Of a stretch of DNA of 13,013 bases, positions 1-9,826 are shown piece by piece (the first letter of the stretch is position 1; each line of letters opens with the position of its first letter). The position numbers were made by a program, and so were the translations under genes. The stretch comes from Candidatus Falkowiibacteriota bacterium (GTDB lineage: Bacteria > Patescibacteriota > Patescibacteriia > Patescibacteriales > UBA12465), in NCBI GenBank assembly GCA_026396945.1, contig JAPLVX010000082.1, forward strand, positions 1-13,013. Direction: 5' to 3'. Under the pieces are notes generated by a model, which was given only the letters and a program-made list of their open reading frames with translations, had not been told where the DNA came from and did no database searches.

Positions 1-449
1 TTGCCCAATTTCTATTCTTAGACGCGGAAAATAAAGATCGGGATATAAAATTCTATATTAATTCTCCGGGGGGCTCGGTGACCGCCGGTTTAGCTATTTA
101 CGACACGATGCAATATATCAAATCAGATATTTCCACAATTTGCGTCGGCATGGCCGCTTCCATGGCTTCGGTTTTACTGGCTGCCGGCACGCCCGGTAAA
201 AGGCTTATTCTACCTAATAGTGAAATTATGATTCACCAGGTTATGGGCGGAGCCGAGGGTCAAGCCACGGATGTTAAAATTAGAGCCGAACATATTATAA
301 AAATCAAAGATAAAATGAATCGGATCCTAGCTCAGCATACCGGCCAGAAAATTGCGACAATTGAAAAAGACACTGACCGGGATAATTTTATGACGGCCGA
401 GGAAGCCAAGGCTTATGGAATTGTTGATAAGATAATTAGAAAGCAATAA
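1..449 (+). CDS. clpP: ATP-dependent Clp protease proteolytic subunit ClpP (5' truncated by window edge)
   Basis: ClpP is the serine-peptidase barrel that degrades proteins unfolded by ClpX or a similar Clp ATPase in the cytoplasm. The frame is open from base 3, so the gene enters from outside the window; 148 residues are visible and roughly 45-50 N-terminal residues are missing relative to typical ClpP. Visible signatures are [20 protein letters not shown] (oxyanion-hole Gly-Gly region), then the nucleophile Ser in GMAASMAS (visible residue 53), His in EIMIHQ (78) and Asp in DRDNF (127). The Ser-His spacing of 25 and Ser-Asp spacing of 74 match E. coli ClpP S97/H122/D171, so the triad is intact. 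The helix and YGIVDKII ending are also typical. The first in-frame GTG at base 78 lies inside the conserved core and is not the real start. It converges on the minus-strand gene that ends at 550. Which ClpP paralogue this is cannot be told. Confidence 0.97.
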
Positions 450-504
450 ATATTTAAACTGCCATGAGCGCCAAGCAAAAAATATCTGCTGACACAATAT
501 TAAA

Positions 505-537
505 ACAAAAAAACGGGAGTCTTGCCCCCGTTTTTTT
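505..537. terminator. Bidirectional intrinsic terminator between clpP and the convergent TSP3 gene
   Basis: An A-rich run followed by CGGG, a 9-base loop (AGTCTTGCC), CCCG and seven T. The A tract pairs with the T tract, so the hairpin has a U-run on either strand. It sits 60-90 bases after the clpP stop and just past the stop of the minus-strand gene ending at 550, so it can serve both convergent units. Confidence 0.85.
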
Positions 538-549
538 AGATTTATAAAG

Positions 550-1593
550 TTATTTTTTAAGAGTCAAGGAATTAATCATGAGCTTGAAAATATCAGGGTA
601 AGCTAAATTTTTAGCATCCAGCGGCGTATAATCTAGGACGTAAATATTGTTTCTATTGACATCGGTAAAGTAGGCAGTTAAACCGTCGTCACTTAATACC
701 CCAGTTCCGATAGAATTGCTAATTAATTGGGTGCTGGGAATTGTTGCCACGGCAAACTCTTTTTGATACCAAACTTCAATGTCTAGGGCGTCGGTATTTT
801 TTTGAACTGATAATTGAACAAATGATTCGTCCGGCGCCGAAAAAATAACAGAGGCATCGGTCGTGAGTGGTTTTAGGGTCCAGGTTTTAGGATATAAAAT
901 TTCATAATTAGCGACTGAATATTTGGCTAAATTAGAATCATCGGTTAGCTTACCGGTACCGGCGGGATTATAACCAGACAATAGTTCCGCCAAATCCGGG
1001 AAACCGTCACCGTCAGAATCGCTAAGTTTAGGGTCAGTCCCTAGGATAGCTTCTTCAGAATCGTTTAAGCCATCATTATCGGAATCAAGGATTGGCTGGC
1101 CGACAGATTTGATGATTTTTTCTTCACCGGGAAAAACTAGGGTCGAACTGGCGCTGGAAGTCGCTAATTCGGTTGAAGTGCTGATCGGAATATTCGCTTC
1201 ATTAATATTAACCGACGGGGTCGGCTCGACTGGCGCTGGGGCGACAGCGCTGGCCACCTGATTAGCGGTTGAAGAACTGGCCACCGGCGCCTGAGAATTA
1301 GGGCTTGGCTGAGCGGCCGGTTTAATTATGAAAATATAAGCTAAGTAAATAATACCTAAAATTGCGACTAAACCGCCGCCAATAATAAACAAACCAATTT
1401 TTTTATGTTTATCAGCGTTATCTGAGCCAACGGAATGGTTAGAATTTTGCGAGTAAGTTGAATTGGCCAAAACACTTTTGCTCGGCATATTGTGCACGAC
1501 AATATCTTGATTTATGCGTTCACTTAGCTCTTGGCCCTTATTTTTTGAATCCGTGTCTTTAACTTTTTTGTTTTTTCTGACTTGCAAAAACAT
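550..1593 (-). CDS. Membrane-anchored thrombospondin type 3 repeat protein with C-terminal PsbP-like region
   Basis: A 347-residue protein of no assigned function. In order it has a charged, probably cytoplasmic N-terminus (1-65), one strong transmembrane helix (about 66-90, IGLFIIGGGLVAILGIIYLA), a Pro/Ala/Ser/Thr-rich stalk (about 91-155), two calcium-binding TSP3 loops (DSDNDGLND at 170-178 and DSDGDGFPD at 192-200) ending in GYNPAGTGKL, and a globular C-terminal domain (221-347). The motif NYEILYPKTWTL recalls PsbP/Mog1-like folds, but that is only a resemblance. Expected topology is N-in/C-out with the Ca-binding part outside the cell. It is the last gene of a probable operon, five bases after the upstream small ORF. 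It is paralogous to the gene at 1861-2638, with the same stalk and TSP3 layout and a matching GYNPxGxGKL ending, but only this copy has the extra C-terminal domain. No Shine-Dalgarno is visible; Met36 (NMPSKS) is an alternative start. Confidence 0.88.
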   Translation of the reverse strand: MFLQVRKNKKVKDTDSKNKGQELSERINQDIVVHNMPSKSVLANSTYSQNSNHSVGSDNADKHKKIGLFIIGGGLVAILGIIYLAYIFIIKPAAQPSPNSQAPVASSSTANQVASAVAPAPVEPTPSVNINEANIPISTSTELATSSASSTLVFPGEEKIIKSVGQPILDSDNDGLNDSEEAILGTDPKLSDSDGDGFPDLAELLSGYNPAGTGKLTDDSNLAKYSVANYEILYPKTWTLKPLTTDASVIFSAPDESFVQLSVQKNTDALDIEVWYQKEFAVATIPSTQLISNSIGTGVLSDDGLTAYFTDVNRNNIYVLDYTPLDAKNLAYPDIFKLMINSLTLKK

Positions 1594-1598
1594 AGTTT

Positions 1599-1790
1599 TT
1601 ATTTAAAACAAAAATAAGATAAGGCGAACATTATCACTAAAGTAATTAAGCCGGCCATAAGCCAGGGGCGACCGGGGAAAATTTTTTCTCCCGGACGAGG
1701 CATAATATGCAAATCCAAAAGCAAATTACGACTCGGCTTCATTGGCGCCGAACTTCTAAAATTTTGGCTAGTAGCTAAGTTACTGAGCAC
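1599..1790 (-). CDS. Putative small C-tail membrane peptide (63 codons, GTG start)
   Basis: I do not recognise this gene. The frame encodes 63 residues with a C-terminal hydrophobic helix (about 44-61, LMAGLITLVIMFALSYF) preceded by a Pro/Gly-rich basic segment (PRPGEKIFPGRPW), as expected of a small membrane peptide with N-in topology. It fills the gap between two paralogous TSP3 genes on the same strand, and its stop is five bases before the ATG of the downstream gene, which favours it being real and co-transcribed. The GTG at 1790 is uncertain. ATG codons at residues 17 and 30 are alternatives; the first has AGAAG about 10 bases upstream, the only SD-like match seen at a start in this window. 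It could also be non-coding spacer. Confidence 0.45.
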   Translation of the reverse strand: MLSNLATSQNFRSSAPMKPSRNLLLDLHIMPRPGEKIFPGRPWLMAGLITLVIMFALSYFCFK

Positions 1791-1860
1791 ATGTTTCTGA
1801 TATAATTAATAGGTAAGCGAGAGAAGGCTTAATCGGCAAGAAGGAAGGTCCCAGCTAAAA

Positions 1861-2638
1861 TTATTTAATTAATTTGCCTGATCCGTTGGGGTTATAGCCA
1901 CCGTGGACTTCAACGCCGTCGGTGAAACCGTCACCGTCAGAATCGGGATTTAGGGGGTTAGTTTTATAAGTTTTCACTTCCTCATAATCAGTTAGGCCAT
2001 CATTATCGGTATCGGTTAAATTTGGGTTGGTCCCCAATTGAATTTCTTCGGCATCGGTCAGTCCGTCCGTCATGGTCGGAATCAATATTGGATAAATCAG
2101 TCGTCGAAGAAGCCACTAGCACAACCGGTTCCGTAGAGCTAGCGTTAATATCGGGCGAAGTTGAAGCAGTGATTTCCGGTGTCGTGGAAGCTGTCGGACT
2201 GGGTTCAGCGACAACCGGAGCGGCTGTTTCCGGCTGGACGGTCACCGGAGCGGTTTCTGGAGTATAATTGACGGGAGTTGCTTGGCTAAAAAATTTAGAA
2301 TAAGCAAAATAGGCACCCGCTCCTAAAATAACTAAAATAATAAGAGCGATCGCGATTTTTTTAAAAGCCTGGCTGCCGGAAGGTTTGGGTAAATCATCGT
2401 CCAAATTAGTTGCCGCCCCTAAGCCAACGGTTCGGGCCTCGATCTGCGGACGGGATTGAGAAAAGACGCCCTGAGTTTCAATCTGATCGGTTTCGGAAAA
2501 AATATCATCAACTTCCTTTCGAGGAGCGGCCGCTGAACTAAAAGAGCCGGGCGAAGGAACGGGACTGGGGCCAGGGGCAGGAGAATTTGTTGGATTAGAG
2601 CCACCCGCCGGCGAATTGTTTGTCAAATCATTAAACAT
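1861..2638 (-). pseudogene. TSP3-repeat membrane protein disrupted by a 4-bp tandem duplication (frameshift)
   Basis: Read from the ATG at 2636-2638, the frame gives a disordered Pro/Ser-rich N-terminus (1-90), a transmembrane helix (about 94-113, IAIALIILVILGAGAYFAY), a Pro/Thr/Ser/Ala stalk (about 118-180) and the start of a TSP3 array (DSDHDG at 186-191). It then runs out of frame and stops at 2003. The rest of the array (GLTDAEEIQLGTNP, DTDNDGLTDYEEV, DSDGDGFTD, GYNPNGSGKL) continues in another frame down to 1861. The break is at 2061-2070, where GTCC is duplicated. Removing one copy gives a 257-residue protein with three uninterrupted DxDxDGxxD loops. This was a paralogue of the gene at 550-1593 and heads the same operon. 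It may be a true pseudogene, a strain variant or a sequencing/assembly error; the tidy restoration argues that the inactivation is recent or artefactual. A truncated 211-residue membrane protein could still be made. Confidence 0.85.
2061..2070. repeat. Short tandem repeat (GTCC)2.5 at the frameshift point
   Basis: Plus strand reads GTCCGTCCGT, two and a half copies of a 4-mer in a TSP3 loop codon run. The intact paralogous loops need one copy fewer to encode DHDGLTDAEE. It is short for a phase-variable tract, but a duplication of this sort is what slipped-strand replication produces. Confidence 0.8.
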
Positions 2639-2678
2639 ATAAATGATAAAATTAAATATTACTATCTATAATAAAATA

Positions 2679-2687
2679 ATTATAACA
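2679..2687 (-). promoter_or_regulatory. Candidate extended -10 promoter of the TSP3 operon
   Basis: The minus strand reads TGTTATAAT, a consensus extended -10 (TGnTATAAT), about 40 bases upstream of the ATG at 2638. The position 17 bases further upstream has no -35 match, which fits an extended -10 promoter. It lies just downstream of the aspS terminator. Confidence 0.5.
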
Positions 2688-2764
2688 TTTTATTTAACAA
2701 AAGGCTACCGAATATCAATTCTGCTGACCCAATAATCTTGATTTTGCCGAAATACTCCATATAT

Positions 2765-2795
2765 AAAAATCCTCGTAATTGAAGCGAGGATTTTT
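2765..2795 (-). terminator. Intrinsic terminator after aspS
   Basis: A perfect 11-bp inverted repeat (AAAAATCCTCG / CGAGGATTTTT) with a 9-base loop, a few bases past the aspS stop at 2801. The T-run ends the stem on the minus strand, and the mirror-image A/T ends mean it could also work on the plus strand. It separates the aspS operon from the TSP3 operon. Confidence 0.9.
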
Positions 2796-2800
2796 GTATA

Positions 2801-4195
2801 CTACTTTGTTTTATTTATTTTTATGCCGACATCTTTCAGTGCTTGTTTCGGCAAAGGGCTGGGCGCACCGGTGAGCAGATCTTTGGCATCGCTGGTTTTT
2901 GGGAAGGCCATCACCTCCCTGATGTTTTTTTCGCCAAGCAAGCAAGAAATTAGGCGATCCAAACCAAGGGCGATACCCCCGTGAGGCGGCGGACCATACT
3001 TAAAAGCTTCTAATAGATGCCCAAAACGGGTATTTATTTCTTTAGATTTTAAACCTAAAATTTTAAAAACTTTCTCTTGCAGTTTCCTTTCATGAATCCG
3101 CAAACTACCACCGCCAATTTCATAGCCATTCAAAACTAAATCATAAGCTTCGGCCCTAACCGCCAAAGGATCGCTAGTTAACTTTTTCTCGTCTTCAGTT
3201 TTCGGTCGGGTAAAAGGATGATGAACGGCATTTATTTTATTATCAACTGAATCTTTTTCAAATAAAGGAAAATCGCTTACCCAACAAAAAGCTAAGGTCT
3301 TATCGTCTTTTTCGGCGTCTGTTCGCAAGTCCGGCTTATCGCTCTTATATTTCTCGACGGCTTCTTGATAAGTAAACCGAGGAAAGGGGGTTTCTTTAAT
3401 AATGCTTTCCGGACTAACGGCTTTAACCAGAGCAATCATGGCTGCTTCCATTAAATCCAAGATTTCGGCTTGGGGGGCGAAAGACATTTCTAAATCAAAT
3501 TGAGTGAATTCCGGTTGGCGGTCGCCCCGTTGGTCTTCATCACGAAAGCAACGAACGATCTGGAAATATTTTTCCAAACCGGCCACCATTAATAATTGTT
3601 TAAATTGCTGCGGCGATTGGGGTAAGACGTAAAATTCGCCGCGGTGGAGGCGAGAAGGCACGATGAATTCCCTTGCCCCCTCCGGGGTCCCCTTGGTTAA
3701 ATAGGGTGTTTCAATTTCCCAAAAACCAAGTTGCGAAAAATAATTGCGTAAAAACAAATTAACCACTTGCCTTAATTTTAAATTATTTTTCATTCGTTCA
3801 CTCCGTAAATCTAAGTAGCGATAAGTTAAACGCAAGCTTTCATTGATGCCACTCGTATCCTCGCTAATCGTTAAGGGGCTAGTAGCCGAGGCGGAAATAA
3901 TTTTTATTTCCTTGGCTAGAATTTCTATCTCACCGGTGGCTAAATTAGGGTTGGCTTTATCCCGTTTTTGAATACTGCCGACTACTTCTAATAAAAATTC
4001 GGCCCGGATATCTTTTAAAATTTTATTAGTTTTTTTATCAACCAAGCTAGGCACGACGACGATTTGAATCAAACCGCTGCGATCGCGTAAATCAAAAAAA
4101 ACGACCTTGCCCATATCGCGGCGCACATTAACCCAGCCATAAATATTTATGTTTTGTCCGACCTTGGTCAAACAGTCAATAATGTTGTTTTTCAT
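2801..4195 (-). CDS. aspS: Aspartate--tRNA ligase, compact form lacking the GAD insertion domain
   Basis: A class II synthetase that charges tRNA(Asp) in the cytoplasm. The 464 residues include an N-terminal OB-fold anticodon-binding domain (about 14-105, INIYGWVNVRRDMGKVVFFD), the bacterial-type linker LRLTYRYLDLRSERM (121-135), the motif 2 region with FRDEDQRGDRQPEFTQFDLE (217-236), the Asp-pocket segment QSPQQFKQLLM (193-203), HHPFT (325-329), and motif 3 GGIALGLDRL (406-415). Bacterial AspRS is usually near 590 residues because a GAD domain of roughly 100-130 residues follows the SDKPDLR motif. Here SDKPDLR (285-291) runs almost directly into FCWVSDFPLFEK (303-314), so the domain is missing although the rest is bacterial in character. 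Whether it also charges tRNA(Asn) cannot be decided by eye; the position of the P. aeruginosa specificity residue His31 is Met28 here. It is the last gene of a probable operon, 16 bases after the 108-residue membrane protein, with no visible Shine-Dalgarno. Confidence 0.97.
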   Translation of the reverse strand: MKNNIIDCLTKVGQNINIYGWVNVRRDMGKVVFFDLRDRSGLIQIVVVPSLVDKKTNKILKDIRAEFLLEVVGSIQKRDKANPNLATGEIEILAKEIKIISASATSPLTISEDTSGINESLRLTYRYLDLRSERMKNNLKLRQVVNLFLRNYFSQLGFWEIETPYLTKGTPEGAREFIVPSRLHRGEFYVLPQSPQQFKQLLMVAGLEKYFQIVRCFRDEDQRGDRQPEFTQFDLEMSFAPQAEILDLMEAAMIALVKAVSPESIIKETPFPRFTYQEAVEKYKSDKPDLRTDAEKDDKTLAFCWVSDFPLFEKDSVDNKINAVHHPFTRPKTEDEKKLTSDPLAVRAEAYDLVLNGYEIGGGSLRIHERKLQEKVFKILGLKSKEINTRFGHLLEAFKYGPPPHGGIALGLDRLISCLLGEKNIREVMAFPKTSDAKDLLTGAPSPLPKQALKDVGIKINKTK

Positions 4196-4211
4196 ATTTA
4201 TTTTAGCGGTT

Positions 4212-4538
4212 TTATTTTATCGGGACCTTGTCCGGTCGGGGCGGACGCTGCGCTTCGATTTGACTTAAATTAGTCACTACATCGTTATTATTTTTAATAA
4301 TTTTATAAATTGTCACAGTATTACCAGAGTCACGTTGCAAGGCCTGAACTTTTAAATCAGGCGAGATATTAAGTTTGTTTTTCTCGGCCGCACTCAAGTA
4401 CTCAACCTTAAAAGCCGGGCTAGTATTTTTTTGAGTAGCCCTTAAATTTATCTGACCAGAACGCTGAAGCCACCAAAGAGCAGCTAAAATAATAATTAGC
4501 GCGCCGACAATTATTAAAATTAATTTTCTCTTATCCAT
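4212..4538 (-). CDS. Small single-pass membrane protein, function unknown
   Basis: I do not recognise a named family. The 108-residue product starts MDKRK and goes straight into a hydrophobic helix (about 5-24, ending in WWLQR), giving a signal-anchor with a soluble domain of about 80 residues. That domain (45-95) is mixed polar/charged with the run SAAEKNKLNISPDLKVQALQ and a predicted strand-rich part (TVTIYKIIKNNNDVV), then a short Pro/Arg-rich tail. It has no cysteines, which contrasts with the neighbouring secreted protein. It is 12 bases after that 1088-residue gene and 16 bases before aspS, all on the minus strand, so co-transcription is likely. Whether the soluble part faces out or in depends on how the KR-rich start is oriented; positive-inside would put it outside the cell. 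Confidence 0.8.
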   Translation of the reverse strand: MDKRKLILIIVGALIIILAALWWLQRSGQINLRATQKNTSPAFKVEYLSAAEKNKLNISPDLKVQALQRDSGNTVTIYKIIKNNNDVVTNLSQIEAQRPPRPDKVPIK

Positions 4539-4550
4539 AAAATTAGTTTA

Positions 4551-7500
4551 TTATTGCCAATAGTTGCAAAGGCTTGGCTGACTAAAAGGGTAACAAAATG
4601 GCGCTCCAGCTTTAAAGCAACATTTATAACCGGTGCTGACATCGCAATAAACTCCATCGGGATCACCGGCCGGACAATTAGGCGCTTTGCAATGCGAATT
4701 AATACAAAACTTCATTTCAGGCGAACAGGTGCCGCAGGTGCCGCCACAACCATCGGAACCGCATTGTTTACCGGCGCAACTAGTGGGCGTGCAACATTGA
4801 TTATTGGTTTTACAAATTTGACCATTAGGGCAAGTGCCGCAGGTACCGTCGCAACCGTCTGGACCGCATTGTTTGCCGGCACAACTAGGACAGCATTGCG
4901 ATTCACAACCGTTAGTAATATTGCCATCGCAGTTAAACCAGCCGGGTTCACAAACAAAAGCGGCGTTATCAGCTATTTGATGAGGATAAAGACAGCTGGC
5001 GGTGCTTAAGGGATTTTCGAAAAAACTACATAACCATTGGTTTGTGCTAGAAGCATTATAGTTACCACATCTTAAACTTAAACCGTTAAAAGGCGCGACT
5101 GCCCAGATATTGAAATCCTTACAAGTCTTTCCTCCTAAGTCGCAATTAGACTCGGGAGTTTTGCAATCACATAATTCACCGGCTTGTTTTATACCATCGC
5201 CACAATTTGGGCCAGTGCCACCGGCCGGCGTTCCACAATCAGCCGGACAATTAGCCATCGTTTCTAACATTTCCCCAGTCAAGGTTACGGTTTCACAGAG
5301 CCCATCACCGCAGAAACCGCCACCCTCCAGCGGCGAAGCGAAAACACAATAACCACTGTCTTTTATAGGGTAATCGAGATTAGGATTAGACTTACAAGAA
5401 TATTGTTTGGAGACACTGCTAATAGCGACCCAGGCGCTGGTACTGGTCGAAGTGTCGAAGATAGCTGTTCCATCTAAACCGTCGCAATCCTCATAGCCAT
5501 CATTATAATAGCCACCTTTACCTTCGGTATTAGGATATTGCTGCATACTGTCACCGCAATAATTATTAACTTTTAAATTAAAGCTTTTCTGGCTCATAGT
5601 ACCATAATCATTAACGGCGCTTATAGTAATAGTTGAGGTTCCGATGGCAGTGGGTTGTCCATGAATATAAAAGTTAGAGTGGTCGGCGTTTTGGGCGGCT
5701 AGCACTTTAATCCCGGAAAAATTTAATTGACTAAAACAATTACCTAAATTTTTAAGCCAGGCGACGGCCTGAGTCTTTATAGAAGGAAAAAGGCGGGTAG
5801 TAAAATTTAATATTCTTTGCGTTGCATTATACTGCGTTCGGTTGTAGATGTACTGTATTCTCGTAACGTTATTAGGGCTATTGGTATTATTATTATTCGG
5901 AATAAAAGTGCCGGGGTCGTAAGCGTAATCGAATATTAAACCGGTCGGCCAACTTGGAATCGAAGAAGTTGAATAAGTAACATCATGCTTACCTTGAATT
6001 ATATTACCGATATAACAAGAATAGGGTTGATTTTGGCGAGCTTCTGTCGGACAGTCAAAATCTAAGACCGGAGGCTCAACAATCAAGTTTATTTTTATTT
6101 TTTTAGTGACAGTGCCGACGGTGATTGTATAGACGGAGGAGGTGTTAGTTTTGAACCAAGTGTTTTGGTTAAAAGTGTTCGGTGGAGTTAGGATAACCAA
6201 CTCGCTCAAATCTCCAATGGTCGAGGTGGCGGTTACTTTAAACTTATTAGAACTAATTTGGGTAGAAGTAGTAACCGAGATCGGGAGGGATAAATCAATT
6301 CCTGAATTTTTTGCAAAAGTTGTCGTTAAGCCCTCAGCGCTTTGATAAATAAAAGAATAAACCAACTTATTTCCCTTCCGCAAAATCTGATCCATGTCTT
6401 CGGCCTCTAAGTAAACCTGGGGGGCAGAAATCTTAATCGGGATAGTGGTCGTGGAGGTTGTAAGCTTTCCGTCATCAACATTCAAAGTAATATTATAGTT
6501 TCCGGCCGGACCGGCCTTGGGTGAATAAATCTTTATTTGATTAGGATCGTTAGTACTTTTTATGGTTACCGGGTCGATCCAACTTGACCAATTAGCGCCG
6601 CCGGCGTCCTTACTAAAAGTAAATTTTAAAGGATTATGTTCAGCATCATAAGCTTTAACGAAACCATTAAACTCTTGGCCGACCGTCCCATTTAATTGAT
6701 AGTCTAAAAATACTGGGGCGCTATTGCCGGCCTGAGCAATATTAGCGATAGCAGTACAGTTAAATTTAGAAAATTGGCCGACCTCCGTACCGTCAGCCTC
6801 TTTATCGTATATATCATAACCAGCGGAAAAAGACTCGATACCGGCACACAGGGTATAAGCCGAGCCATTGGCATTAGCCGTATAATATATGATTCGACTG
6901 CCGGCGGGGAAATTCAAATCCCCGCTGCCTGGCGCTTGGCTAAAAAACTGGTGATTATTTTTATTCCAACAGGTAGCTGCCTCATAGTCTGGAGAACAGT
7001 AACCGAGGGTATTAATGGGGTCAATAAGATCCGAGCTAATTCCAATTTCTGGCAAGAAAACTTCACGCCAACTCGGCCAAGTAGAAACAGTTTTATTCTT
7101 AACAAAAGTACCAGCCTCTAAAATGGGGTAATGACTCTTTACCTTTTTATAAGCAAATAATGATTCTTTCAGCTCGGACAAAAGACTAATTCTTTTGACG
7201 TCCCTGACTATTTCGGCCTTGAGGCTACCGCAAAAAAGCCCGCTGGGACAATCGGTATCGTTATAACAATTAAGCGCCTCCTTGGGCACACATTTCCCTT
7301 GAGCTGGGCTAGCTGTATCCGTTTCGCACTTCAATTTATCCGAGCAGTCTTTATCGCTTAAACAATTTATCGTACTTATATTACAAGTTCCCTGCAAATC
7401 TGTCTGGGAAAAATTATTATTAAATTTCCAATGAGCCACTATCTGCCCTAAAATATCAGCTGTCTGCTGGTTGGAAGTTTGATTATAAGAAATCAAGTAG

Positions 7501-7817
7501 ATATTAGTGTATATATATTTGTTAGAGAGAGAAATATTAGCCGCATTTACGTAAACAGTACGGCCGTCTCTAATCGCTTCATAACCGTCAACCGTTAAAG
7601 CCTGCGGTGAACCGGCAAAGCCTTGCTCTTTGTACCAGCGATCAATTGAATAATGATTAGGATTAGGTAAAATTCTAACGGCAATGGCGTCTGACTGGTT
7701 AGCCGCTAAAACCTGTGCGCCCACTAAGACCTTTAGATTAAAAAGGGAGAAAATTAAAAATGTCAGGACAAACAAAATCGCCCCGAAATAATATTTTTGG
7801 CTATGATTTTTTAACAT
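4551..7817 (-). CDS. Large secreted multidomain protein: pilin-like segment, Ig-like domains, Cys-rich C-terminus
   Basis: A 1088-residue surface or secreted protein of unknown function. The order is: N-terminal signal/anchor helix (about 11-32) ending near VLAANQ; a conserved-looking region with a WYKEQGF motif and TVDGYEAIRDGRTVYVNA (60-130); two CxxDxDC-type Cys clusters (152-196); a segment like the soluble half of type IV pilins/pseudopilins (about 204-336: helix ELKESLFAYKKVKSHYP, then WPSW, DPINTLGYC, CWN and YTLCAGIES); a cadherin/He_PIG-like domain (366-464); less clear Ig-like strands (466-580); a second He_PIG-like domain (585-750) with a large insertion; and Cys-rich modules from 754 to the end. 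The last include CGDSMQQY, CGDGLCE, CGDGIKQAGELCD, FNCDGNITNGCE and two 35-residue repeats. It has its own extended -10 promoter and leads the operon with the 108-residue protein and aspS. Adhesion or envelope decoration is plausible but unproven. Confidence 0.85.
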   Translation of the reverse strand: MLKNHSQKYYFGAILFVLTFLIFSLFNLKVLVGAQVLAANQSDAIAVRILPNPNHYSIDRWYKEQGFAGSPQALTVDGYEAIRDGRTVYVNAANISLSNKYIYTNIYLISYNQTSNQQTADILGQIVAHWKFNNNFSQTDLQGTCNISTINCLSDKDCSDKLKCETDTASPAQGKCVPKEALNCYNDTDCPSGLFCGSLKAEIVRDVKRISLLSELKESLFAYKKVKSHYPILEAGTFVKNKTVSTWPSWREVFLPEIGISSDLIDPINTLGYCSPDYEAATCWNKNNHQFFSQAPGSGDLNFPAGSRIIYYTANANGSAYTLCAGIESFSAGYDIYDKEADGTEVGQFSKFNCTAIANIAQAGNSAPVFLDYQLNGTVGQEFNGFVKAYDAEHNPLKFTFSKDAGGANWSSWIDPVTIKSTNDPNQIKIYSPKAGPAGNYNITLNVDDGKLTTSTTTIPIKISAPQVYLEAEDMDQILRKGNKLVYSFIYQSAEGLTTTFAKNSGIDLSLPISVTTSTQISSNKFKVTATSTIGDLSELVILTPPNTFNQNTWFKTNTSSVYTITVGTVTKKIKINLIVEPPVLDFDCPTEARQNQPYSCYIGNIIQGKHDVTYSTSSIPSWPTGLIFDYAYDPGTFIPNNNNTNSPNNVTRIQYIYNRTQYNATQRILNFTTRLFPSIKTQAVAWLKNLGNCFSQLNFSGIKVLAAQNADHSNFYIHGQPTAIGTSTITISAVNDYGTMSQKSFNLKVNNYCGDSMQQYPNTEGKGGYYNDGYEDCDGLDGTAIFDTSTSTSAWVAISSVSKQYSCKSNPNLDYPIKDSGYCVFASPLEGGGFCGDGLCETVTLTGEMLETMANCPADCGTPAGGTGPNCGDGIKQAGELCDCKTPESNCDLGGKTCKDFNIWAVAPFNGLSLRCGNYNASSTNQWLCSFFENPLSTASCLYPHQIADNAAFVCEPGWFNCDGNITNGCESQCCPSCAGKQCGPDGCDGTCGTCPNGQICKTNNQCCTPTSCAGKQCGSDGCGGTCGTCSPEMKFCINSHCKAPNCPAGDPDGVYCDVSTGYKCCFKAGAPFCYPFSQPSLCNYWQ
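4689..4883 (-). repeat. Two tandem 35-residue Cys modules in the secreted protein
   Basis: Residues 979-1008 and 1014-1043 of the 1088-residue protein repeat CAGKQCGxDGCxGTCGTC followed by a spacer and a further Cys pair, with a period of 35 residues (105 bp). Copy 1 has CGPDGCDG and copy 2 CGSDGCGG. Modules like this occur in Cys-rich proteins of myxobacteria and Patescibacteria; disulfide-stabilised folding outside the cytoplasm is expected. Confidence 0.85.
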
Positions 7818-7842
7818 AAATTAAAAAATATATTATATTTTT

Positions 7843-7851
7843 ATTATACCA
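7843..7851 (-). promoter_or_regulatory. Candidate extended -10 promoter of the secreted-protein/aspS operon
   Basis: The minus strand reads TGGTATAAT, a full extended -10, about 25 bases upstream of the ATG at 7817. A second TATAAT occurs at 7832-7837. No -35 box is seen. Initiation a few bases downstream would leave a leader of under 25 bases with no Shine-Dalgarno. Confidence 0.55.
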
Positions 7852-7862
7852 TAAAGCAATTT

Positions 7863-7895
7863 TAAAAAAAATCCCCGGGCTTTATGACCGGGGAT
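7863..7895 (-). terminator. Intrinsic terminator after the T9SS-tagged gene
   Basis: Minus-strand stem ATCCCCGG, 9-base loop, CCGGGGAT, followed by eight T. It lies about 35 bases beyond the stop at 7928. A second small inverted repeat (CTCC TTA GGAG, 7896-7906) lies between the stop and the main stem. Confidence 0.92.
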
Positions 7896-7927
7896 CTCCT
7901 TAGGAGAGCAAAAAATAATTAATAATG

Positions 7928-9826
7928 TTAGCGTTTAACCAGTTTGCCGGTTAAGACGGTTTGCGTAGCGTTGCTCAGTCGGTAGTAATAAAGGCCGACG
8001 GGCAAATCACTTAAATTCAGTTTTTGGGTCTGAGCGGTTATGAGCTTGTCGCCCAAAAGGTTGAAAATCTCTATCTGCGGATTAACAATTCCCTTGATAT
8101 AGAGGTAATCAGCGGTCGGATTGGGAAAAACCTTGATGGTCGTTGGATAATTTTCTTCGATACCGACGGTGATATCATACGTGATGTCATACCAAATCGA
8201 GTCATTGATATTGTTCTGATCGAAAAAAACATATCGGATATGGGTCGAACCGTTATGGCCGTTCCACTCGTAGCGCGAGGTAAAACTCTTGAAGCTGCTG
8301 TCCGGCGAGATATTCACCGGGTTGCCAGAAATAAAAGTGGTCGCCCCGTAAAGAATGTCCCAGGAAAAGCAATTGACGGTATTATTAACCTGGTTGATAA
8401 CAATTTTTTTACACATTACGGGCTTGGCGACAGCGCTGACGTTCTTGATCCAAAAGGAATCAGCGTTAGCGTTGAAGATCACTTCTGGTGGAGCCGAGGT
8501 ATTCAGATTCAGAATAGTGGAGCCGTTGGTTACGTCTTGTCCGGCCACACCATTGATAATTTTGAAGCTGGGCCAGACTGATACTAAGACTGAGAGCTCG
8601 ACGATTTTGTTGCCAAAAATATAAATTTTATCACCGGCTTCTTTAATTTTATAATTGGCGGCGATACTATTAATTACTTTGGTAGACAAAGTGTCTAGGG
8701 TAATTGGATCTAATAGATAAATGCGGAAAGGCTCAGTGGGGTTGGTCCCGGTTGGTCCGACAACCATGAACGGATATTCAGGGCTAGAACCAATCTTGCC
8801 AAAATAATAGCTGCAGTCAAAGGTCCAGGGCAAATTTACAATAAACTTGGTGCTTATCACCGCTCCATTAGCCGGATCAATTTTGTGGATATTGCCATCG
8901 CCCGGTCCCCATAAAAAGATATTACCGTGAGGGAATATCGCCAAATTATTATTTATATTAGAAGCTGGCAAATTGACCTGGTAACTAGTCGAGAAACCAT
9001 TCGTATCTTTTCTTATAAGTTTCGCGGTGGCCCAATTATAATAATCTAAATAATACAGGCTGCCATTATAAGGGAAAAGGTCGAGATACAAGTCCCCGGC
9101 AACTGGCGGATCATTATTAACAATTTGTAAATCATTATTAATTTTGAATTTACGACCAATCGTGTTATTGCCCGACACCGGCTTAAAGGCATTCAAGTAT
9201 AGTGAATTGCCATACTTAATAAAAAATCGATAATCGAGTTGATCGTTAGTAAGAAGATGATTGCATTTCACGGAGTCTATTGTCAGGGAGCCAAGATCGG
9301 TAAGATAGATGGGGTCAAATTTATTTAGTTTAACGGTTTCCAAATTGTTGCTAGCACCGCTACTAACCATCCATAGATATAGACCATCAAAATAAAACTT
9401 ATTCCGTACTTCGCCGGGTAAAATCCAGGGCGCACTCCAAACCGTGTCTTTTAAAAGGCTAAGGTTTTGATCATATAATTTAACCTTTAAAGAGTAAGAA
9501 ACACCGGTTGGGTTAGTCAGCAATACTTTGCCGTTATAGCAAAACATTTTTATCCCAATCCAGGCACTATCATTGGTGGCGGTTGCCACTACGGCGCCAC
9601 TAGCATTACGTTTTTCGACCTGATAATGATCGTTATAATTCCAGTGACCCAGATAAATCAGGTCATAGGTAAAGCCGTCCATCGTCTGGAGATCCAGGCA
9701 ATTCTGACCGGCTAATAGGGTAGAACTCCAATCTTCGTGCATCGTAATGCCCAAAGTTTGAGCTTCGACCGGCCGGAAATTAATCAACAGCCAGCCAAGA
9801 AACAATAAAATGCTTATTTTTTTCAT
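7928..9826 (-). CDS. Secreted protein with T9SS type A C-terminal sorting domain
   Basis: From the ATG at 9824-9826 the product is 632 residues: a signal peptide (1-23, MKKISILLFLGWLL then VEAQ), a long region of strand-rich repeats with YxxGxLYY-like motifs that could be a beta-propeller (about 25-420; inference), a beta domain with NCFSWD, NISPDSSF and IRYVFFDQNNINDSIW (about 485-550) of the kind that precedes sorting tags in Bacteroidota, and a C-terminal sorting domain (about 566-632: VFPNPTADYLYI, IEIFNLLGDKLI, LNLSDLPVGLYYYRL, GKLVKR). That tag directs export through the type IX secretion system, known from Bacteroidota and relatives, followed by cleavage and surface attachment. I chose this ATG over a TTG 60 bases upstream because it gives a normal signal peptide; the extra 20 residues are Lys/Asn-rich. 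The leader (ATCTGAAACCC before ATG) has no SD, as is usual in Bacteroidota. It is monocistronic, between a candidate promoter and a terminator. Molecular activity is unknown. Confidence 0.9.
   Translation of the reverse strand: MKKISILLFLGWLLINFRPVEAQTLGITMHEDWSSTLLAGQNCLDLQTMDGFTYDLIYLGHWNYNDHYQVEKRNASGAVVATATNDSAWIGIKMFCYNGKVLLTNPTGVSYSLKVKLYDQNLSLLKDTVWSAPWILPGEVRNKFYFDGLYLWMVSSGASNNLETVKLNKFDPIYLTDLGSLTIDSVKCNHLLTNDQLDYRFFIKYGNSLYLNAFKPVSGNNTIGRKFKINNDLQIVNNDPPVAGDLYLDLFPYNGSLYYLDYYNWATAKLIRKDTNGFSTSYQVNLPASNINNNLAIFPHGNIFLWGPGDGNIHKIDPANGAVISTKFIVNLPWTFDCSYYFGKIGSSPEYPFMVVGPTGTNPTEPFRIYLLDPITLDTLSTKVINSIAANYKIKEAGDKIYIFGNKIVELSVLVSVWPSFKIINGVAGQDVTNGSTILNLNTSAPPEVIFNANADSFWIKNVSAVAKPVMCKKIVINQVNNTVNCFSWDILYGATTFISGNPVNISPDSSFKSFTSRYEWNGHNGSTHIRYVFFDQNNINDSIWYDITYDITVGIEENYPTTIKVFPNPTADYLYIKGIVNPQIEIFNLLGDKLITAQTQKLNLSDLPVGLYYYRLSNATQTVLTGKLVKR

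Follow-up and report, generated by a model that had tools for sequence, protein, structure and literature searches.

A conserved beta-propeller protein with a type IX secretion sorting domain in a Magasanikbacteria-like Patescibacterium

The stretch of DNA analysed here, which is one entire contig of 13,013 bp and is referred to below as the window, encodes a protein that combines a predicted Sec signal peptide and a predicted beta-propeller with a C-terminal domain (CTD, here also called the tag) of the kind that sorts proteins to the type IX secretion system (T9SS), in a genome in which no match to SprA, PorV or PorU was found. We read it as a conserved and secreted beta-propeller protein with a true T9SS type A CTD, encoded by a Magasanikbacteria-like Patescibacterium, and consider the chances about even that it is host-facing, derived from a partner and kept for use. 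Hosts are known for only a minority of Patescibacteria, and if the style of the tag follows the partner, then a genome sequence would yield a testable prediction of the host. If the reading is correct, a secretion tag is kept where no reader was found, so that it may do something besides export. In the open literature no title or beginning of an abstract was found that reports such tags in Patescibacteria, and none is reported in the available parts of PMC12455944 and PMC12419801.

The tagged protein, its family and its contig

The gene (Table 1) could also be read from an upstream TTG, which would give 652 amino acids, but the ATG was taken because the signal peptide begins there. A Sec signal peptide is predicted, using a simple in-house rule, from a hydrophobic N-terminus followed by a cleavage-like site, and the expected cleavage falls before Q23, which is invariant in the seven aligned members of the family. 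A preliminary description of the window had recognized a T9SS type A tag at the extreme C-terminus, and this is borne out by profile searches, in which TIGR04183 scores 39.1 bits (cut-off 23) over residues 566-632 and PF18962 scores 39.6 bits (cut-off 27) over residues 566-629; in the profile search of the whole genome the protein is the second of four matches, all above the cut-off, with 41.9 bits and E 6.7e-11. The full-length structure model, which was built from seven sequences and has a mean pLDDT of 68.2, places a propeller at about residues 26-416, then a poorly modelled beta-rich part, then seven strands in the tag at 565-631, while the tag folded alone yields six strands at low confidence (mean pLDDT 51.8) and was set aside. 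Foldseek ranks chains from BAM complexes, and BamB, as the top matches to the model (E 5.7e-11), and at about 10% identity such BamB-type matches speak for the predicted fold only.

Table 1. Features of the window, with positions counted from its first letter
Feature	Coordinates	Strand	Remarks
Aspartyl-tRNA synthetase (AspRS)	2801..4195	(-)	used to place the contig
Downstream Cys-rich protein, 1088 aa	4551..7817	(-)	hydrophobic N-terminus; 5.2% Cys
Intrinsic terminator	7864..7895	(-)	8-bp stem, 9-base loop and T-run; read by eye, 3' of the stop
Tagged gene	7928..9826	(-)	ATG at 9826; 632 aa; stop codon within the coordinates
T9SS type A sorting domain (CTD), residues 566-632	7931..8131	(-)	profile matches; seven predicted strands, block means pLDDT 54-84
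Beta-rich part, residues 417-558	8153..8578	(-)	model stretch of low confidence
Beta-propeller, residues about 24-416	8579..9757	(-)	model mostly pLDDT 70-93, blocks of 60 and 40
Signal peptide, residues 1-22	9761..9826	(-)	site inferred from sequence and a simple rule
Upstream Cys-rich protein, at least 944 aa	10178..13012	(-)	open at the contig end; 11.5% Cys

A protein search, which scored only the 7999 candidates that share most words with the query, identified six full-length homologues at 41-52% identity. The tag is present in all six and is thus kept in seven of the seven members found, with P568-N569-P570, G592, L608, G611, Y613 and K631 invariant. By our reading G592 corresponds to the published conserved glycine before strand 4, which is reported for CTDs together with an intact C-terminal end; the motif is not conserved in a Tannerella CTD (PMC11285876, as far as the available part of that paper goes). 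One homologue is annotated by NCBI as a T9SS type A sorting domain protein. The mean pairwise identity within the family is 0.649 for the signal peptide, 0.515 for the beta-rich part, 0.453 for the propeller and 0.397 for the tag, and the position of the tag as the least conserved part by identity counts against the reading preferred here. The signal peptide is the best conserved part, with L13, L14, I15, F17 and R18 invariant, and such conservation is unusual for a mere export signal. The homologues P0005 and P0006 are mosaic, sharing 82-100% identity at both ends and 40-56% in the stretch between the ends; this pattern, in which the middle of the propeller has strongly diverged, suggests an exchange of segments.

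A recent transfer from Bacteroidota and a chimeric contig, both of which had been put forward in the preliminary description, are each unlikely given the placement of the AspRS, the tagged Patescibacterial homologue on a long contig and a codon use that fits the genome itself better than Fluviicola. The nearest named homologue of the AspRS lies in Ca. Magasanikbacteria at 66% identity, with a closer one at 82%. The search of the 632-residue product for its nearest taxon, which had been proposed at the outset, returned a single homologue with a named organism, a 'Patescibacteria group bacterium', on a contig of 881,714 bp (P0006), and the tagged genes of relatives likewise lie inside long contigs. 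A codon model derived from 18 genes of the genome's own contigs fits the tagged gene better than a model from the ORFs of Fluviicola, the one Bacteroidota genome compared, by 0.26 per codon, which is within the range of the 18 genes (0.14-0.38); the fit of the gene to its own model (-1.10) is somewhat below that of the own genes (-0.88 to -1.08). A recent transfer of the gene is therefore not supported in view of this codon use and of six homologues that are all tagged, no closer than 41-52% and in the one named case Patescibacterial. A scan of genome_contigs with the family alignment gave one locus, in Fluviicola, which matches residues 532-632, the scan using two short patterns and so possibly missing near records, and a search of 379 genomes of the phylum, an even sample of a larger group, recovered the full-length protein from its own genome only.

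The surroundings of the gene also agree with the preliminary description. The gene stands alone with its own terminator, a stem-loop and T-run at about 7895-7864 after the stop, which does not appear in the list of the terminator scan because the limits of the scan exclude a 9-base loop. It is flanked on both sides by genes for Cys-rich proteins, the upstream one with a weak MXAN_6577-like match far under the cut-off. No break in composition is apparent: the GC content of the gene (0.37-0.44) is similar to that of its surroundings, and the spacer upstream of it has the lowest value in the window (0.298). The bin comprises 786 kb in 126 contigs and is 80.9% complete and 2.45% contaminated. An Rfam search of the window gave no match. 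At 1861-2638 (-) overlapping ORFs of 211 and 74 amino acids, the second with TSP3-like repeats, resemble one gene in two frames.

Distribution of the tags and search for the secretion machinery

The genome of the window (G000) was compared with 97 relatives of its family and order (G001-G097). A search of the same genome for further tagged proteins gave four matches over the cut-off, and hence three tagged genes besides that of the window, all three of them lone genes. By our own reading of the sequences, one lies between ftsK- and murE-like genes, another between a pnp-like gene and a NYN-type gene next to rpsO, and the third follows rplU. The product of the last is lipoprotein-like, with 283 amino acids and a weak tag (25.9 bits), and a second tagged protein of the genome (384 aa, L006) has 15 homologues, all tagged. 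In G027 the same gap between ftsK and murE holds a protein of 141 amino acids that consists almost entirely of a signal peptide and a stretch resembling a tag.

Across the family and order a tag match occurs in 33 of the 98 genomes, the own genome included, and in 31 it is over the cut-off; among good genomes only, the count is 27 of 67. Each such genome has one to four matches, and these lie at the C-terminus in 31 of the 33. The 64 matches extracted were reduced to 61 tags in 31 genomes by dropping three that are not C-terminal (G027_C68, G075_C18 and G082_C23), G075 and G082 being without any other tag match. Across the phylum a tag match was found in 20 of the 379 genomes, in ten of them over the cut-off (two of those ten from this order). 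Stray matches do occur, in 2 of 14 control genomes and in one of these over the cut-off. Three matches that exceed the cut-off are present in G143, a genome that belongs elsewhere in the phylum, and the trait therefore extends beyond this order.

The machinery that would read such tags was sought in the same genomes. SprA was matched in none of the 98 genomes of the family and order, in a search that gave no match in a control either; in a separate run the Fluviicola genome scored 2402 bits and none of seven Patescibacterial genomes gave a match. PorV was matched in none of the 33 genomes with a tag match, compared with five matches in Fluviicola, and the C25 peptidase (PorU) in none of these 33, compared with two in Fluviicola; across all 98 genomes the C25 peptidase gave two matches, both in genomes without tags. 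The Fluviicola control itself contains 98 tag matches. The search for porU, porV and sprA that the preliminary description had called for thus gave no match in the tagged relatives, nor in the own genome within a bin of the completeness given above.

The protein of the window resembles a T9SS type A cargo in its signal peptide, its cargo part, a C-terminal domain that scores over curated cut-offs, an invariant glycine that may be the published one and the C-terminal lysine, but differs in that neither its genome nor its tagged relatives match SprA, PorV or PorU and that each genome has only one to four tags. It fails to belong to that class on the machinery searched for (SprA, PorV and PorU), and it is accordingly named here an orphan CTD protein. 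The earlier suggestion that an orphan tag may be reused for another route is strengthened by the wide occurrence of tags in the order, as the preliminary description had expected for a tag present throughout the lineage.

Gene starts, tag styles and the readings they bear on

The signals of the tagged proteins in this order often appear FCB-group-like and unlike those of the genome's own genes, as judged from the Gln after the signal peptide, the tag and, outside f1 (the taxonomic family of the window's genome), the leader. According to an in-house rule that misses at least G030_C43, a Gln follows the signal peptide in 30 of the 52 tagged proteins with a usable start, whereas among 24 secreted-like ORFs without a tag it does so in 3 (p 2e-4), the untagged set having been filtered further than the tagged set. 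Tags were classed by regular expressions on the last 85 residues into a 'Bacteroidota style' and a 'QNYPNPFNP style', each of which we presume to be linked to a phylum, and a Gln is found in 22 of the 29 proteins with one style, in 4 of the 15 with the other style (p 0.003) and in 4 of 8 that were unclassed. A Gln at this position is described as a typical feature of Bacteroidota that the FCB group as a whole does not share, with values elsewhere from 2% to 77%, the latter in Ignavibacterium album (PMC5837995, in the part available), so it is not confined to Bacteroidota. The family of the window's protein resembles the Bacteroidota Q-rule signal peptides in having an invariant Gln past the expected cleavage site, and differs from them in that the genome is not Bacteroidota. 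M28-type proteins, the family which we take to hold the glutaminyl cyclase, had no match in 33 of 38 Patescibacterial genomes and a partial one in 5, and were set aside as an indirect stand-in for the cyclase.

Shine-Dalgarno leaders are rare in the native genes of the order, being found in 1 of 31 genes with well-known starts and 5 of 72 with unambiguous starts, or, under a generous rule, in 19 of 293 sampled ORFs and in 2 of the 55 among these that have a signal-like start, both lipoprotein-like. Tagged genes outside f1 have them in 22 of 24 or 20 of 25 cases, depending on which of two rules is applied, and those inside f1 in 9 of 28 or 6 of 31, which is above the native level (p 0.005 and 0.006); the four tagged genes of the own genome have none. 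Outside f1 the leaders accompany all 8 tags that have one style and 8 of the 12 that have the other. Leaders therefore track the taxonomic family more than the tag style, and leader, signal peptide and tag tend to agree in some lineages without doing so as a rule. A pattern for the 3' end of the 16S rRNA gave no match in the stretches of these genomes that were examined. A Bacteroidota-type promoter is not enriched, occurring in 1 of 52 tagged genes compared with 6 of 191.

Tags are more alike within genomes than between them, with a mean likeness of 0.323 compared with 0.144, a difference reached in none of 5000 shuffles and in 21 of 5000 when shuffling was done within one genus. With pairs of homologous cargo removed and shuffling inside families, the likeness within genomes is 0.297 (0 of 2000 shuffles). 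The tag styles vary between lineages, and of the 15 genomes that have at least two classed tags, 13 are uniform in regex class (5 of 20,000 shuffles). All counts by class are given as run, with G072_C4 in the wrong class, its motif having lost its first residues when the sequence was cut. Of the 20 genomes that have at least two tags, 9 exceed the upper 5% of pairwise likeness in Fluviicola (0.258, from 29 tags) and 11 do not; the own genome, at 0.14, lies under it. That CTDs from two species of Bacteroidota may fail to be compatible was demonstrated with a chimaera (PMC11285876, in the part available), and this would provide a reason for tags to suit one reader.

On the reading preferred here, partners among the Bacteroidota or elsewhere in the FCB group would have been the source of the gene class, through old or repeated acquisition. 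In favour of it are the tag itself and its retention in the protein family, the higher frequency of tags in the family and order than across the phylum, the silence of the machinery models, the likeness of tags within genomes, the link of tag style to the Gln, a lower dN/dS of the tag than of the cargo in three of four ortholog pairs, and the tagged genes and lipoproteins next to a giant Cys-rich gene, both described below. Against it, besides the low identity of the tag, stand the fourth ortholog pair, the genomes whose tags do not exceed the Fluviicola level, the leaders that track the taxonomic family, the Bacteroidota-type promoter that is not enriched and the Gln outside Bacteroidota. The protein would leave the cell by Sec, and we infer everything past that step: with about equal chances of being right or wrong, it may act at the contact with an FCB partner, where the propeller would be the working part and the tag would be retained because it is matched to the partner, for instance by being held by the partner's surface attachment complex.

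A fair rival, if a somewhat unlikely one, is that the tag is a stable beta-sandwich module which aids folding or anchoring on the Patescibacterial cell's own surface, so that the likeness to a partner reflects ancestry only. This reading needs no machine, and it is consistent with the seven strands predicted in the tag and with the low dN/dS of the tag in three ortholog pairs, which come from elsewhere in the order. In these pairs the tag and the cargo have ratios of 0.136 and 0.197, 0.082 and 0.199, and 0.120 and 0.180, two of the three being from the same two genomes and the difference being given without a significance test; in a fourth pair (G017 and G021) the tag is less conserved than the cargo, with 60% compared with 73% identity, and dS is saturated. 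We read the lower ratios and the invariant key residues as a sign that the domain is probably under selection, which does not prove that it serves as a signal. Reuse on the own surface does not, however, predict that tags resemble each other within a genome, that their style goes with the Gln after the signal peptide, or that Shine-Dalgarno leaders occur where native genes rarely have them.

A bolder reading, which we hold to be unlikely, is that these genes are written in the partner's 'language' (leader, signal peptide, lipoprotein signal and tag), that their products are made or sorted in the partner cell and shown on its surface, and that the style of the tag names the phylum of the host. 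Rather unlikely too is that the genes are passive relics, repeatedly taken up from FCB bacteria, with the tags as baggage. Partner-type signals at both ends of the genes would fit such uptake, as would the insertion of a single gene between metK- and ahcY-like genes, which are separated by 41 bp in G012 and enclose a tagged gene in G031, and the available part of PMC12455944 states that gene sharing with Patescibacteria was, per genome, three times more frequent for Bacteroidota than for Pseudomonadota; most transfers in that groundwater study were between Patescibacteria. Baggage would not, however, account for the retention of the tag and of Q23 in all seven members of the window's protein family, down to 41% identity, for a dN/dS of 0.08-0.14 in the tags of three pairs, or for the better fit of the own-genome codon model than that of Fluviicola. 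It is very improbable that the order has a T9SS-like exporter of its own which is too diverged for the models used: the tags are kept, and the models covered SprA, PorV and PorU out of a set of parts that also includes GldK-N and PorP, but the three that were run are silent in tagged genomes and strong in Fluviicola, and the tag styles vary between lineages. An artefact of assembly or binning, for which the division of the bin into 126 contigs might speak, is practically discounted by the long contig of P0006 and by the tagged genes of G045, G029 and G031, which lie among core-looking genes on long contigs.

Genomic neighbourhood of the tagged genes

In these three relatives the tagged gene lies, respectively, between uvrB-like and pilin-like genes before ileS on a contig of 284 kb, beside infB on a contig of 273 kb, and between metK and ahcY on a single contig of 976,925 bp; the names of flanking genes that have no Pfam match (ftsK, murE, pnp, rplU, metK, ahcY, uvrB, ileS, infB, rny and similar), here and above, are those we take from reading their sequences.

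Another recurrent place is next to a giant Cys-rich protein (2717 aa in G031), which is near-universal in the order (84 of 98 genomes at E 1e-10). A tagged gene follows the giant gene at a distance of 79-185 bp in six genomes of two families, and the tag style at this place differs between the two families. The product in G084 has a YCF48-type propeller, those of G073, G088 and G004 match it by BLAST, and those of G007 and G015 match each other only. The gene of the window lies elsewhere, yet it also follows a Cys-rich gene.

Twenty further genomes were examined at the giant-gene place, of which 18 could be judged, two stretches being too short, and a short lipoprotein with a Bacteroidota-like start, scored by eye, was present there in 9 of 13 other f1 genomes and in none of the five others (p 0.03). 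The nine loci are L147, L148, L150, L152, L154-L157 and L163; one of the lipoproteins is on the opposite strand, and five of the nine genomes have a tag elsewhere. When the start was scored by regular expression among the loci examined, 8 of 12 lipoproteins in f1 had it and none of seven elsewhere. No Pfam match over the cut-off was found for the lipoproteins and the polytopic neighbours. The motif C-X-K-(D/E)2 is a surface lipoprotein export signal defined in Capnocytophaga, with another consensus given for Bacteroides and Flavobacterium (PMC5080379, in the part available). The short lipoproteins resemble the Capnocytophaga surface lipoproteins in that four of the nine fit this motif exactly when read by eye, and differ in that they are found in Patescibacteria.

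In G012 a PrgI and a TraG/VirB4-like ATPase are encoded about 15 kb from the giant-protein gene. A PrgI and a VirB4-like ATPase recall the Patescibacterial type IV secretion system described in the available part of PMC12102498. A PHROGs search with four T4SS-like proteins gave weak or terminase matches and was set aside. On contig C4 of the own genome (L168, positions 1-8417) the giant protein is divided between two ORFs, of 2095 and 711 amino acids, whose overlap is a few bases, and part of that contig reads N.
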